From Sulfurimonas sp. HSL-1656 (GTDB lineage Bacteria > Campylobacterota > Campylobacteria > Campylobacterales > Sulfurimonadaceae): 64,000 nucleotides of DNA. The notes under the pieces were generated by a model. It did not search any database. It was given only the letters and a program-made list of their open reading frames with translations, and had not been told where the DNA came from. Numbering within the stretch: position 1 is the stretch's first letter; every line of letters begins with the position of its first letter. The translations under genes and the position numbers were made by a program. This document shows positions 1,968 to 59,513 of the stretch, one piece after another. The DNA lies in assembly GCF_039645585.1 (NCBI RefSeq), contig NZ_CP147915.1, forward strand, positions 62,001 to 126,000. Reading direction: 5' to 3'.

Positions 1968-4204
1968 CAGAAGTTCACGGTGAGCGAGCCGAACACCTGC
2001 ATCGGCGCGCCGGTCATGTAGGTCGATGAGGTCCCCGTCGTCGCCAGGACGTTGTCCGCGGAGATGATCGTCGCGACGTACTTCTCGTCGGTCAGGTTCG
2101 TACCGCTGAGGCGGAAGACGGCGCTTTTGCTGCCGAGGAAGCCGTTGATGCGGTAGGCGACGTCGAGGTCGAAGAGGGTGTAAGCGTCGACGGTCTGGCT
2201 GTTCTGCAGGTCGCCGTAGCGCTTGGAGGTGTAGCGCACGCTCGGGGTGATCATCCAGCCGCCGACGCTGTAGGAGAGCGCCGCCTTGGCCAGGACCTCC
2301 GGCGCGTCGGGGACCTGTTTGCCCTCGGTGTCGATCGTCGTCGTCGGCGAGCTTTTGAAGTCCTGCGTAAAGGCGTACTTGTTATAGGAGAGCCCCGCGA
2401 TGAACTCCAGCGATTCGCTGACCGGGCCCGAGGCGGAGAACTCTGCGCCGTAGCCCATCGCGTCGCCGACGTTGGCGGGATAGTTCACGCCGTATTCGGG
2501 GTCGTAGACGTTGGCCTGCTTGTTCTTGACGTAGGAGACGAAAAGCACCGGGTTCAGCGCGATGCCGCCGACCATCGTCTTGTAGCCCAGGTCGATGTTG
2601 TCGGAGGTCTCGAGTTCGAGTTTGTTCCACAGCTGCTGCAGGGTCACGTTCTTGGCGACGAAACTGGCCCGGTTCTTGATGTAGGTCGGGAAGAGGTTGA
2701 CGTCGAAGCCGTAGGTCCGGGCATAGGAGACGTAGAGCGTATTGCGCTCATCGAAGCGGTAGCCGGCGTAGAGCGACGGGATCCACGTATAGAAGGTCTT
2801 CGCCTTGACGCTGGCCCACGGATCGAGCGTCCCCTCGGCGATCGCCGTGTCGTAGTTCTGGCTCGTGTTGAGGTCGGTGCCGAAGGTGTAGCTCTCGAGC
2901 GAGCCGATCTCGAAGCTCTGGTACTGGAGCCCGACATTGTAGTCGAAGCTGCCGAGGCTGCCGGAGAGCTCCGCGAAGGGGGCCTGGAGGGTGTGGTAGC
3001 CGGTTTTGGCCAGGGAGGCGTACCCGTCAAAGACGAGGTCGCCGCCGACAGACTTGTACTTCAGGCGGTCCGTCGGCGGTCCCGGAGGCTGCTGCTTGTG
3101 GTACCAGTAGCCCAGCGTCGTCTTGAGGGCCTTGGAGAAGCGGTGGGTGTACTCGGCGACGCCCCCGTAGAGGTCATGGTCGATCCGCCACTGGATGACG
3201 CGGTTTTTCGCGGGGTCCGCGTTGACGCTGGAGTTCCAGTACTCCCCTTTGTCCGTTTTGTAGTAGGGTTTTAATGTCACCGTGTCGTTGGCGCTCGGGC
3301 GGAACTGCAGGGTTGAGAGGACGGCCGTCGTATCGAAGCTCTGCTTGTTCCAGTCGTAGTAGTCGACGTCGTTGTTCGCCGTCGGCCGGGCGGCGGCGTA
3401 ATCCTTGTCCCAGAAGCTCTCCAGGTCCCGGGTCTCGGTATAGGAGAGGGCGTAGTAGTTGTGGTGGTCGTCTTTGTTGTAGATGACGTAGGCTTCCGCG
3501 CTGAACATCTCCGAGGGGGTATAGGCGATCCCCGCCATGGCGTTGAAGCGTTCGAGGTCCCCGTCGCCCTTGTACTTGTCGTATCCGAGGTGGGAGATCG
3601 ATCCGAAGAGGCGGACGTCCCCCATCTTCCCGCTGTCGAAGCGTCCAAAGGAGCGCGTAAAGCTGTCCGAACCGAACGACTGCGAGAGGATGGCATTCGT
3701 CTGCTGCCGCGGCGCGTTGACGTTCATGTCGACCTTGCCGATCAGGCTGGAGAAACCGATGTTCTTTTCCGGCGGCAGGTACCCTTTGAGCAGGTCGATG
3801 GAGGCGACGTTCTCCATGTCGAGCATCTGTTTACCGCCGCCGGGGTTGCTGGAGATCGGCATGCCGTCGATCATGTAGACGCCCCCCGGGCCGGACTGGG
3901 ATTTGCCGCGGATGCGGATGGGGTCGTGGTAGGAGGGTTCGTTGGAGCCTGCCGTGTCCGCGGGGGTGTAGTTGACCGAGGGGGAGTACTGGATGATCGT
4001 AAAGGGGTTCATGTTGGCCTGCGTCCCGAGGGTCGTGATGCTCTTTTTCTCGAAGCGCTGGTCGGACCCGTTGACGTCGCCCAGGTAGAGGGTGTCGTCC
4101 AGGGCAGTGTCGGAGACGACGATGTGCTCGATATTGACGGGGCCGGCCCAGAGGGCGGAGGCGGCCATGACGGCGACAAGGGGGTAGGTGTAAGCGGGTT
4201 TCAA
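1967..4204 (-). CDS. TonB-dependent outer-membrane receptor, TTG start
   Basis: This 745-residue receptor should take up a metal chelate across the outer membrane using TonB. A signal peptide ending near ALWA is followed by a plug domain with IRIRGKSQSGPGGVYMIDGM and LLKGYLPPEKN, then a long beta-barrel rich in aromatic turns that ends ...VFGSLTVNF with the usual terminal aromatic residue. I chose TTG at 4204: an AGGAGA sits 5 nt upstream, the signal peptide starts there, and the codon overlaps the preceding stop as TTGA. Starting further upstream would add 80 residues that are only a shadow of the binding-protein gene. No N-terminal signalling domain is present. The ligand cannot be assigned. 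Confidence 0.9.
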   Translation of the reverse strand: MKPAYTYPLVAVMAASALWAGPVNIEHIVVSDTALDDTLYLGDVNGSDQRFEKKSITTLGTQANMNPFTIIQYSPSVNYTPADTAGSNEPSYHDPIRIRGKSQSGPGGVYMIDGMPISSNPGGGKQMLDMENVASIDLLKGYLPPEKNIGFSSLIGKVDMNVNAPRQQTNAILSQSFGSDSFTRSFGRFDSGKMGDVRLFGSISHLGYDKYKGDGDLERFNAMAGIAYTPSEMFSAEAYVIYNKDDHHNYYALSYTETRDLESFWDKDYAAARPTANNDVDYYDWNKQSFDTTAVLSTLQFRPSANDTVTLKPYYKTDKGEYWNSSVNADPAKNRVIQWRIDHDLYGGVAEYTHRFSKALKTTLGYWYHKQQPPGPPTDRLKYKSVGGDLVFDGYASLAKTGYHTLQAPFAELSGSLGSFDYNVGLQYQSFEIGSLESYTFGTDLNTSQNYDTAIAEGTLDPWASVKAKTFYTWIPSLYAGYRFDERNTLYVSYARTYGFDVNLFPTYIKNRASFVAKNVTLQQLWNKLELETSDNIDLGYKTMVGGIALNPVLFVSYVKNKQANVYDPEYGVNYPANVGDAMGYGAEFSASGPVSESLEFIAGLSYNKYAFTQDFKSSPTTTIDTEGKQVPDAPEVLAKAALSYSVGGWMITPSVRYTSKRYGDLQNSQTVDAYTLFDLDVAYRINGFLGSKSAVFRLSGTNLTDEKYVATIISADNVLATTGTSSTYMTGAPMQVFGSLTVNF

Positions 4205-57103: not shown

Positions 57104-58690
57104 ATGGTTGATGTATTAGTAGTCGGCGGCGGCGGTGCAGGTATGGCAGCGGCACTCTCCGCCAAAGAGGCGGGGGCATCGGTGGCGGTGCTCGGCAAGA
57201 GTTACCCTACCCGTTCGCAGACCTGTATGGCGCAGGGCGGCATCAATGCAGCCCTGGGGCACGCAGGTGACGACAGTGTGGAAATGCATATCGCCGATAC
57301 CCTCAAGTCCGCCCAGGGGCTGGCCGACGAAGCGGCCGTCGCGGCGCTCTGCTCCGAAGGGATCGATGCCCTGCAGTGGCTTGACGCGATCGGGGTGCCG
57401 TTCAGCCGCAATGACGATGCGCAGATCGCCCAGCGGCGACTGGGCGGCGCTTCCGCCCCGCGGGCCTGTTACGCCCAGGACTACAGCGGGTTGAAGATCC
57501 TCCATACCCTTTACGACCAGTGCAACCGCGCGGGCATCCCCTTTTACAACGAACGTTTCCTGCTCGACATCATCGTCGAAGGGGATCGGGCCTGCGGCGT
57601 CAAGGTCCTCGATATCCGCAGCGGTGCCGTCGAAGTGTACATGGCCGGGGCGGTGATCCTCGCGACGGGCGGCTACAGCAAGCTCTACGGCCGCCACTCG
57701 ACCAATGCCGCCGGCAGCAGCGGCGACGGCCACGCAGCGGCGCTACGGGCCGGTGCGCGGCTCAGTGACATGGAGTTCGTGCAGTTCCACCCGACGGGCC
57801 TGGCGGGCTCCTCCATCCTCATCTCCGAGAGCGCCCGGGGGGCCGGCGGCTACCTGCTTAACGGCAAAGGCGAGCGTTTTATCGACGAGTGCCTCCCCCG
57901 CGACCGGGTGGCGCGTGCGATTCACGATCAGATCATGGCCGGCGAGAGGGTCACCCTGGATATCCGCCACCTCGGTGAAGCCTTTATCGACGGCGAACTC
58001 CCCCAGGAACGCAAGCTCGCGCAGCGCTACGAAGGGGTCGACCCGGTGTACGAGCCGATCCCGATCAAGCCGGTGGCGCATTACACGATGGGGGGCATCG
58101 AGGTCGGTGCGGATTCGCAGACGGCCGTGACGGGGCTCTTTGCCGCCGGCGAATGCGCCAATCACCGTGTCCACGGTGCGAACCGTCTCGGCGGGAACTC
58201 GCTGCTGGAGCTGATCGTTTTCGGCCGCCAGGCGGGGGCGAATGCGGCTGCCGTGGCAAAAAGCGGCAGCGCAGAGGCGCAGCCTGCAACGGCAGAAGCT
58301 CCGGAGCTGGAGGCGTGTTTCAACGACGCCCCCGAGGTCGACTTCTACGCCCGCCGCGACACCCTGGCGACGCTCTTTTACGAGCAGGTCGGCCTGGTGC
58401 GTGACGCCGAACGTCTGCGCTCGGCGCTTGACGCGGTCAAAGCGATGCAGACGGAACTGCCGAAGATGGGCGTCGTGGACCGCAACGGCGCCTACAACAC
58501 CAACCGGACGGATTTCCTGGAGTTCGTCAACCTTCTCACCGTGGCTGAAGCGGTGGCGGAGGGGGCGCTGCGCCGGGAAGAGAGCCGGGGGGCGCACTAC
58601 CGCAGCGATTTCCCCGAAGCGGACGCCGCCCTGGCCGTGCATTCGCTCAGCTGTATCAAAGAGGAGGGACTGTGTTTCGATTTCCAATGA
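57104..58690 (+). CDS. fumarate reductase/succinate dehydrogenase flavoprotein subunit, non-covalent FAD type
   Basis: This 528-residue flavoprotein interconverts fumarate and succinate. The dinucleotide fold GGGGAGMAAALSA opens the protein. The position that is His in covalent-FAD enzymes (RSHT) is Gln39 here (TRSQT), so FAD should be non-covalent. Active-site parts are kept: QFHPTG, SESARGAGGYL, PRDRVARAI, VAHYTMGGI and ANRLGGNSLLEL. AAGGAG precedes the ATG. It is shorter than typical SdhA (about 590 residues). The next gene, a tiny acidic protein, overlaps its stop by 4 nt. No anchor gene is adjacent. Confidence 0.9.
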   Translation: MVDVLVVGGGGAGMAAALSAKEAGASVAVLGKSYPTRSQTCMAQGGINAALGHAGDDSVEMHIADTLKSAQGLADEAAVAALCSEGIDALQWLDAIGVPFSRNDDAQIAQRRLGGASAPRACYAQDYSGLKILHTLYDQCNRAGIPFYNERFLLDIIVEGDRACGVKVLDIRSGAVEVYMAGAVILATGGYSKLYGRHSTNAAGSSGDGHAAALRAGARLSDMEFVQFHPTGLAGSSILISESARGAGGYLLNGKGERFIDECLPRDRVARAIHDQIMAGERVTLDIRHLGEAFIDGELPQERKLAQRYEGVDPVYEPIPIKPVAHYTMGGIEVGADSQTAVTGLFAAGECANHRVHGANRLGGNSLLELIVFGRQAGANAAAVAKSGSAEAQPATAEAPELEACFNDAPEVDFYARRDTLATLFYEQVGLVRDAERLRSALDAVKAMQTELPKMGVVDRNGAYNTNRTDFLEFVNLLTVAEAVAEGALRREESRGAHYRSDFPEADAALAVHSLSCIKEEGLCFDFQ

Positions 58691-58815
58691 TCTGTTCGGA
58701 TGATGTCGATAAGGATTTCCTCGACGAAGAGGAGACGGAGTGGGAAGATGCCTGCTGCGAGGACCCCTACTGGGACGAAGACGAGGATGACAACGAAGTG
58801 GAGTGGTGCGACTGA
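58687..58815 (+). CDS. 42-residue, extremely acidic Cys-containing protein between the flavoprotein and Fe-S genes
   Basis: A complete small frame starts with ATGA overlapping the flavoprotein stop and ends with TGATG overlapping the iron-sulfur subunit start. Of 42 residues 22 are Asp/Glu and one is Lys. Cys is at 3, 23, 24 and 41; Trp at 19, 29 and 40. Examples are DFLDEEETEWEDACC and DPYWDEDEDDNEVEWCD. Overlaps on both sides imply it is translated in step with the enzyme subunits. I recognise no family. An assembly factor, metal or Fe-S carrier, or a tightly bound acidic subunit are possible. Confidence 0.65.
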   Translation: MICSDDVDKDFLDEEETEWEDACCEDPYWDEDEDDNEVEWCD

Positions 58816-59513
58816 TGAAAATTGCCGTCAAAAGAGCAGATGAAACCGTCACCTATGCTGTCGATTTCGAGGGAACGCTGCTGGAACTTCTCATCCACAT
58901 CAAGACGTATGTCGATCCGACCCTGACTTTTGCCTCGGGCTGCCGCTCCAGCGTCTGCGGCAGCTGCGCCGTGCGGGTTAACGGCACCGAGGCTCTCGCC
59001 TGCAGCTACAAACCCGCCGACGGCGATCTCGTCGAGCCGCTGCGCAACGCCGAGGTGATCCGGGACCTCGTTGTCAATATGGACCGTCCCCTCTCCTTCA
59101 ACGCCGGGGCGCAGGCGTGGATCGACCCGGTCAGCGGTGTGATCCGCATGGGACACGCGGAGGAGAAGGCGAACGAGCTGCAAAGCGACTGCATCCTCTG
59201 CGGCTCCTGCTACAGCGCCTGCCCCGTCTACGCCGTCAAGCCGGATTTCGAAGGGCCGTTTGCCCTGACGCGCAGCTGGCGTTATGTCAGCGACGCCCGG
59301 ACGGCGGATGTGCGCGGTAAACTCGAAGCGGTCCAGCAAAACGGTATCTGGGACTGTACGCTCTGCAACGAGTGTGTCCCCGTCTGCCCCCAGGGGATCG
59401 CGCCCAAGCAGGACATCAACCTGCTGCGCACCAAGAGCGGCATGGAGGGGTTCATGGACCCGAACATGATGGGCGGCTTCGGCGGCCTGGACTTCGGGGC
59501 ACCGAGTTTTTAA
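58815..59513 (+). CDS. fumarate reductase/succinate dehydrogenase iron-sulfur subunit with a 4-Cys third site
   Basis: This 232-residue electron-transfer subunit has a [2Fe-2S] site at Cys43, 48, 51 and 63 (SGCRSSVCGSCAVRV), a [4Fe-4S] motif CILCGSCYSACP (Cys126/129/132/136), and the last motif CTLCNECVPVCP (Cys181/184/187/191). In classical SdhB/FrdB the 184-equivalent is not Cys and the site is [3Fe-4S]; the extra Cys predicts a second [4Fe-4S], as in type E enzymes. The start shares one base with the acidic mini-protein. The tail is Gly/Met-rich (NMMGGFGGLDFG). No CCG-domain SdhE or cytochrome b gene follows. Confidence 0.9.
   Translation: MKIAVKRADETVTYAVDFEGTLLELLIHIKTYVDPTLTFASGCRSSVCGSCAVRVNGTEALACSYKPADGDLVEPLRNAEVIRDLVVNMDRPLSFNAGAQAWIDPVSGVIRMGHAEEKANELQSDCILCGSCYSACPVYAVKPDFEGPFALTRSWRYVSDARTADVRGKLEAVQQNGIWDCTLCNECVPVCPQGIAPKQDINLLRTKSGMEGFMDPNMMGGFGGLDFGAPSF

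Follow-up and report, generated by a model that had tools for sequence, protein, structure and literature searches.

A small acidic gene between frdA and frdB of Sulfurimonas and its candidate role as a C-terminal plug of the fumarate reductase flavoprotein

Introduction

Why should the flavoprotein and iron-sulfur genes of a fumarate reductase be separated by a minute, extremely acidic reading frame that overlaps both of them, and what might its product do for the enzyme? This question is raised by the frdAB locus of Sulfurimonas sp. HSL-1656, which was analyzed within a stretch of 64,000 nucleotides, here termed the window (GC content 60%). These autotrophs are thought to use a soluble fumarate reductase for CO2 fixation, an enzyme whose electron donor and assembly are both unsettled. 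If it has a small partner of its own that ends in a substrate-like tail, both questions would become more accessible.

Results and Discussion

A two-subunit fumarate reductase without an adjoining anchor gene

The gene frdA (57104 to 58690, forward strand) encodes a flavoprotein of 528 amino acids of the two-subunit (anchorless) SdhA/FrdA type with Pfam and NCBIfam matches. Its score against TIGR01812 was 553.8, just below the cut-off of 567.3, and its closest solved relatives are SdhA and FrdA. The FAD-binding His is replaced by Gln (RSQTCMAQGG, from residue 37). The motifs of the dicarboxylate site are intact (QFHPTGL, ESARGAGG, HYTMGG from residue 326, and GANRLGGNS from residue 358), and across the compared FrdA rows the His of this site was kept in 54 of 55 and the Arg in 55 of 55. 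The iron-sulfur subunit FrdB is encoded at 58815 to 59513 (forward strand; 232 amino acids from the ATG) and contains 12 Cys. Within its WDCTLCNEC segment, CTLCNEC stands in place of the CTFVGYC of E. coli FrdB, with an extra Cys at the Val position. Because of this extra Cys, FrdB probably carries one [2Fe-2S] and two [4Fe-4S] clusters, with a [4Fe-4S] cluster replacing the [3Fe-4S] cluster.

No membrane-anchor gene was found beside frdAB; the next frame upstream has 277 aa and is unmatched, and the one downstream is YajQ-like. Judged from its genes, the operon presumably encodes a cytoplasmic, two-subunit FrdAB with a supposed role in the reductive TCA (rTCA) cycle, to which PMC4674564, citing Sievert 2008, assigns the two-subunit cytoplasmic FrdAB of this group. 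The literature found on Campylobacterota FrdAB names FrdA and FrdB only and leaves a small intervening gene unmentioned. Neither SDHAF4 (PF07896) nor SdhE/SDHAF2 (PF03937) was detected in this genome and 25 related genomes, in searches that did detect the positive controls.

The genome holds two complex II-like enzymes. A separate SdhA-SdhB-SdhE set lies 1.1 Mb from frdAB (L125, 3065 to 6662); its SdhA keeps the FAD-binding His (RSHSGAAQGG vs. RSQTCMAQGG in FrdA) and its SdhE is a CCG-domain protein, whereas the anchorless FrdAB is marked by the missing FAD-His and by CTLC. A further frame (L126, 3262 to 4926; 554 amino acids) encodes a third flavoprotein, SdhA/NadB-like, with no Fe-S subunit frame seen adjoining.

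A small acidic gene overlapping both subunit genes

The frame between the two genes (58687 to 58815, forward strand) has 42 codons and translates to MICSDDVDKDFLDEEETEWEDACCEDPYWDEDEDDNEVEWCD, followed by the stop codon. It had been singled out in an earlier note on this DNA for its composition, and re-translation gave the same counts: 12 Asp and 10 Glu (22 of 42 residues), a single Lys, four Cys including a CC pair, and three Trp. The two overlaps described there were likewise confirmed in the sequence. At the 5′ end, ATGA is shared with the frdA stop (TGA, 58688 to 58690), and at the 3′ end, TGATG is shared with the frdB start (ATG, 58815). When all 510 window frames of at least 35 codons were compared, the most acidic 42-residue stretch was the small gene itself, with an Asp/Glu fraction of 0.52, followed by a runner-up at 0.45.

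Translation probably starts 15 bases upstream of the ATG at 58687, namely at GTG 58672. This start is suggested by an AGGAGG (58662 to 58667, forward strand; Shine-Dalgarno-like, placed by reading, within the frdA codons for KEEG) located 4 nt before the GTG, by the homolog of the congener G006, which is devoid of the inner ATG, by two congeners that carry an ATG at the position of 58672, and by most homologs of other genera, whose sole start lies there, within the 3′ end of frdA. The probable full gene, for which the name frdX is used here, thus extends from 58672 to 58815 on the forward strand, overlaps frdA by 19 nt, and encodes the 47-aa protein MFRFPMICSDDVDKDFLDEEETEWEDACCEDPYWDEDEDDNEVEWCD. 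Two parts of it recur below, the central CCED motif (codons at 58753 to 58764, forward strand), which is usual in the family without being universal, and the C-terminal tail EVEWCD (codons at 58795 to 58812, forward strand), in which the family varies least (E-x-[ED]-[WYMQ]-C-D).

Distribution and selection

A search profile built from the first homologs found recovered a homologous acidic frame in 31 of 228 Sulfurimonadaceae genomes, distributed over six genera including Sulfuricurvum. All 30 homologous loci that were read sit between frdA and frdB, the 31st (G063) being unread. The earlier note had proposed to look for an acidic frame with the same Cys spacing in the corresponding gap of relatives, and in related genera the gap does contain such a frame, conserved and with a related Cys spacing. 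With a profile of the conserved core, a scan of the genome collection returned six loci, five from Sulfuricurvum and one from a Campylobacterales bacterium; a match in G365 (E 0.005) was set aside, as it does not lie in any frd operon. A phylum-wide sample yielded no homologs outside the family and the family f4 (discussed below), and there are no paralogs in the own genome. The protein and its homologs matched no family in Pfam, NCBIfam, and PDB profiles, and a Pfam scan of 23 homologs gave a single chance match to another family. The frdX genes add a conserved protein family that is absent from current libraries, having been missed because it is so short.

Selection on the protein was followed in the part of frdX beyond the frdA overlap. 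Within the genus of the window, pN/pS was 0.19 (pS 0.42), and three further genera, with pS close to saturation, gave values of 0.27 to 0.29. Third positions of the CCED and tail codons vary freely while the residues are kept, and none of the frdX-family homologs contains a frameshift or an internal stop. Since intact homologous frames occupy the same slot in six genera at a pN/pS of 0.19 to 0.29, frdX is, by these sequence criteria, a genuine gene under purifying selection, far beyond chance. The earlier suspicion that a double overlap would be unlikely unless the frame is translated is borne out to this extent, as conservation and pN/pS point to a conserved gene of the flavoprotein/Fe-S operon.

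Many relatives lack the gene, among them the genera coded g2, g3, g5, g6, g8, and g9, and its distribution marks frdX as an optional helper. On a tree of FrdA and FrdB, on which several deep branches are unsure, its presence requires at least five changes, so that gain and loss happened several times. A comparison of FrdA and FrdB residues with frdX presence gave no convincing case of a residue that tracks the gene, the signals at the FrdA N-terminus being due to locus truncation. As relatives with similar FrdAB lack the gene and no residue of either subunit follows its presence, the need for frdX would be weak or conditional.

Side observations were made on the same slot. In family f4 (L110 to L124), a coiled-coil protein with E/K-rich heptads is encoded between frdA and frdB, the same-slot proteins matching in 16 of 18 genomes; in about half of the species it bears an acidic W-EEE--GGNCCED tail, which is missing in others. 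These proteins may be relatives of frdX via the W-x-CCED tail or a separate invention. Furthermore, in four relatives a dispersed, structured element of about 85 nt adjoins the small gene or lies within it (L050, about 4072 to 4180; L051, about 430 to 530; L064 of G084, after the small gene; L080, on the reverse strand, inside the small gene). Its core, GCCGARGNNAACNNAGYGTTARCGTAG, occurs in 12 copies in the own genome and in 27 in G006, while the reversed control gave zero copies and the window contains none. The element folds into three hairpins with strong covariation (two-sided changes in 11 of 15 pairs among 12 sequences), is often tandem with a spacing of 87 to 122 nt, and has no Rfam match; it appears to be a so far undescribed RNA element of Campylobacterota, either mobile or regulatory. 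In G033 (L051, 340 to 560), it seems to have taken the place of the central part of the small gene, of which the start and an EWCD stub are left, with frdA and frdB still open beside it, a natural loss of the small gene.

Variable cysteines and a constant C-terminus

Most homologs contain 37–61% Asp/Glu and three to five Cys. In two of the homologs (L012 and L025), CCED is missing and a single Cys is present, and in others the first position of the CC pair is taken by Val (L005 and L006), Ser (L024), or Arg (L081). The C-terminal pattern E-x-[ED]-[WYMQ]-C-D was found in all 30 homologs; in 29 the stop codon directly follows the Asp (-Cys-Asp-stop), and one has an additional Glu (-Cys-Asp-Glu-stop). 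The tail is also kept in seven loci whose frdX stop lies 6 to 138 nt before the frdB start (L017, L024, L025, L050, L064, L074, and L076), and neither the overlap of stop and start nor a ribosome site for frdB can therefore explain it. A C-terminal Asp presents two carboxylates, one of the side chain and one at the alpha position, on a succinate skeleton, i.e. it is an N-acylated aminosuccinate.

An AlphaFold2 model of FrdX alone, built from 23 sequences, had a mean pLDDT of 60 and a pTM of 0.14 and showed no secondary structure, which predicts a chain without a fold of its own. A model was also made of the read-through frame that joins the small protein to FrdB in G019, natural DNA whose TAA was translated as Gln; in it, FrdB folded, and a single helix formed in the small protein. 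This model gave no sign of docking and is uninformative on that point.

A candidate plug for the active site of FrdA

The reading we favor, with a probability of roughly 0.4, is that disordered FrdX docks its tail in the dicarboxylate site of FrdA and protects the flavin and the subunit itself until FrdB arrives. FrdX, by its sequence a short and strongly acidic protein, would be mostly disordered, and translational coupling would tie its production to that of FrdA and FrdB. Its tail, -[W/Y]-Cys-Asp-COOH, would enter the dicarboxylate site of freshly made FrdA, where His and Arg of the active site could bind the terminal Asp, while the acidic body and the aromatic residues would cover part of FrdA, perhaps the face on which FrdB docks. 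Such a plug might retain the non-covalent FAD and block oxygen side reactions as well as unproductive substrate binding, until the docking of FrdB displaces it. The tail would most likely act on FrdA in this way because the assembly factor SDHAF4 sets a precedent and because FrdX is predicted to be foldless, acidic, and Asp-ended; the action would be SDHAF4-like without homology. That the protein may shield the flavoprotein before subunit assembly had already been suggested in the earlier note, and the constant Asp tail and the SDHAF4 precedent lead us to prefer this suggestion to the iron or Fe-S delivery proposed alongside it.

The same observations bear on other roles. FrdX could stay on FrdAB as a permanent third subunit that covers the FrdB face normally meeting the membrane anchor, replaces the missing anchor, and keeps the enzyme soluble or docks the electron donor. 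In complex II operons, the position of frdX is often taken by the gene of a third subunit, which would agree with this role, as would an FrdAB that lacks an adjoining anchor gene and has an extra Cys in FrdB, and coupled translation fits a near-stoichiometric supply. However, many close FrdAB operons do without frdX, no FrdB residue tracks its presence, and the role gives no reason for the extreme C-terminus to vary least, so that we consider it unlikely. A somewhat smaller chance is given to a helper similar to IscX or frataxin, whose acidic residues and cysteines would hold Fe2+ or a cluster and pass it to FrdB. The high Asp/Glu content, the three to five Cys of most homologs, and the location immediately upstream of the Fe-S subunit gene speak for it, but no Pfam match was found, and Fe-S carriage by the protein's own cysteines is disfavored as a general role because L012 and L025 keep one Cys and the CC pair is broken in L005, L006, L024, and L081.

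The single-Cys homologs are also incapable of an internal disulfide, which weighs against a CP12-like redox switch, i.e. a conditionally disordered FrdX that, via a disulfide, binds FrdAB and shuts it off under oxidizing conditions. A small, acidic protein with a CC pair and a C-terminal Cys on a carbon-fixation enzyme would suit such a switch, yet with neither a Pfam match nor a second partner enzyme in sight it appears rather improbable, a little more so than the iron helper. Least plausible by far is a non-functional translated spacer that couples frdB to frdA translation and whose amino acids are immaterial. The overlaps at both ends and the absence or breakage of the gene in some relatives (L051) would be expected of it, but a pN/pS of 0.19 to 0.29, motifs that are kept while third positions are free, and a C-terminus conserved even without an frdB overlap already contradict it.

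The docking of the FrdX tail in FrdA has points against it, too: relatives with similar FrdAB lack the gene, one homolog ends in CDE, the coiled-coil proteins of the same slot in f4 have no CD end, and a plug alone leaves the Trp residues and the usual CCED motif unaccounted for.

Comparison with known systems

The operon itself belongs with the two-subunit cytoplasmic FrdAB of Campylobacterota, as FrdA and FrdB homologs are encoded with no anchor gene adjoining. Among small proteins that serve such enzymes, IscX and frataxin are acidic iron binders of Fe-S assembly, folded domains with Pfam models that belong to the general machinery. FrdX is likewise small, acidic, and linked to an Fe-S enzyme, but it is without a Pfam match and tied to the operon of one enzyme. 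CP12, which regulates Calvin cycle enzymes and is disordered and redox-active (PMC9406205, PMC8151241), shares with FrdX the small size, charge, cysteines, and link to a carbon-fixation pathway, and disorder is predicted for FrdX, too. However, paired Cys are essential in typical CP12, whereas FrdX has one constant Cys and no sequence match.

According to the earlier note, the known SDH assembly factors do not resemble this protein, which was only half right. SDHAF4, too, is a small, disordered protein, and the active site of SDHA is filled by its Asp-containing C-terminal tail (PMC10784507). SdhE/SDHAF2 (PF03937) is small and a helper of SdhA/FrdA, as is proposed for FrdX; in contrast to FrdX, it has a helical fold and promotes the covalent attachment of flavin, whereas the FrdA studied here has Gln at the FAD-His site and FrdX has no PF03937 match.

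The closest parallel is SDHAF4 (Sdh8, DUF1674, PF07896). On its own it is disordered, its last residues Asp107-Phe108 bind His407 and Arg451 of SDHA, the Asp mimics a dicarboxylate, and the tail shields FAD (PMC10784507). Both proteins are small, SDHAF4 is disordered when free and FrdX is predicted to be so, and in both the residues at the extreme C-terminus would be the key ones, with an acidic residue fitting the dicarboxylate site of a complex II-type flavoprotein that awaits its Fe-S partner; for FrdX, target and fit would follow from its tail. Unlike SDHAF4, FrdX has no PF07896 match, is far more acidic, and is encoded between the subunit genes. SDHAF4 ends in a strictly conserved Asp-Phe with Asp penultimate, FrdX in Cys-Asp with Asp terminal in 29 of 30 homologs, and by its chemistry the terminal Asp of FrdX should be the closer substrate analogue. 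In addition, its proposed target FrdA is without covalent FAD, and SDHAF2, which trades places with SDHAF4, is absent here. It is conceivable, if somewhat doubtful, that an unrelated new family has converged on the SDHAF4 solution, with the C-terminal Asp of a disordered, acidic peptide as an encoded substrate analogue that plugs and protects the flavoprotein of a soluble, complex II-type rTCA enzyme and perhaps reports the redox state via the adjoining Cys. If true, this would be a convergent SDHAF4 mechanism in bacteria that possess neither SdhE/SDHAF2 nor SDHAF4.
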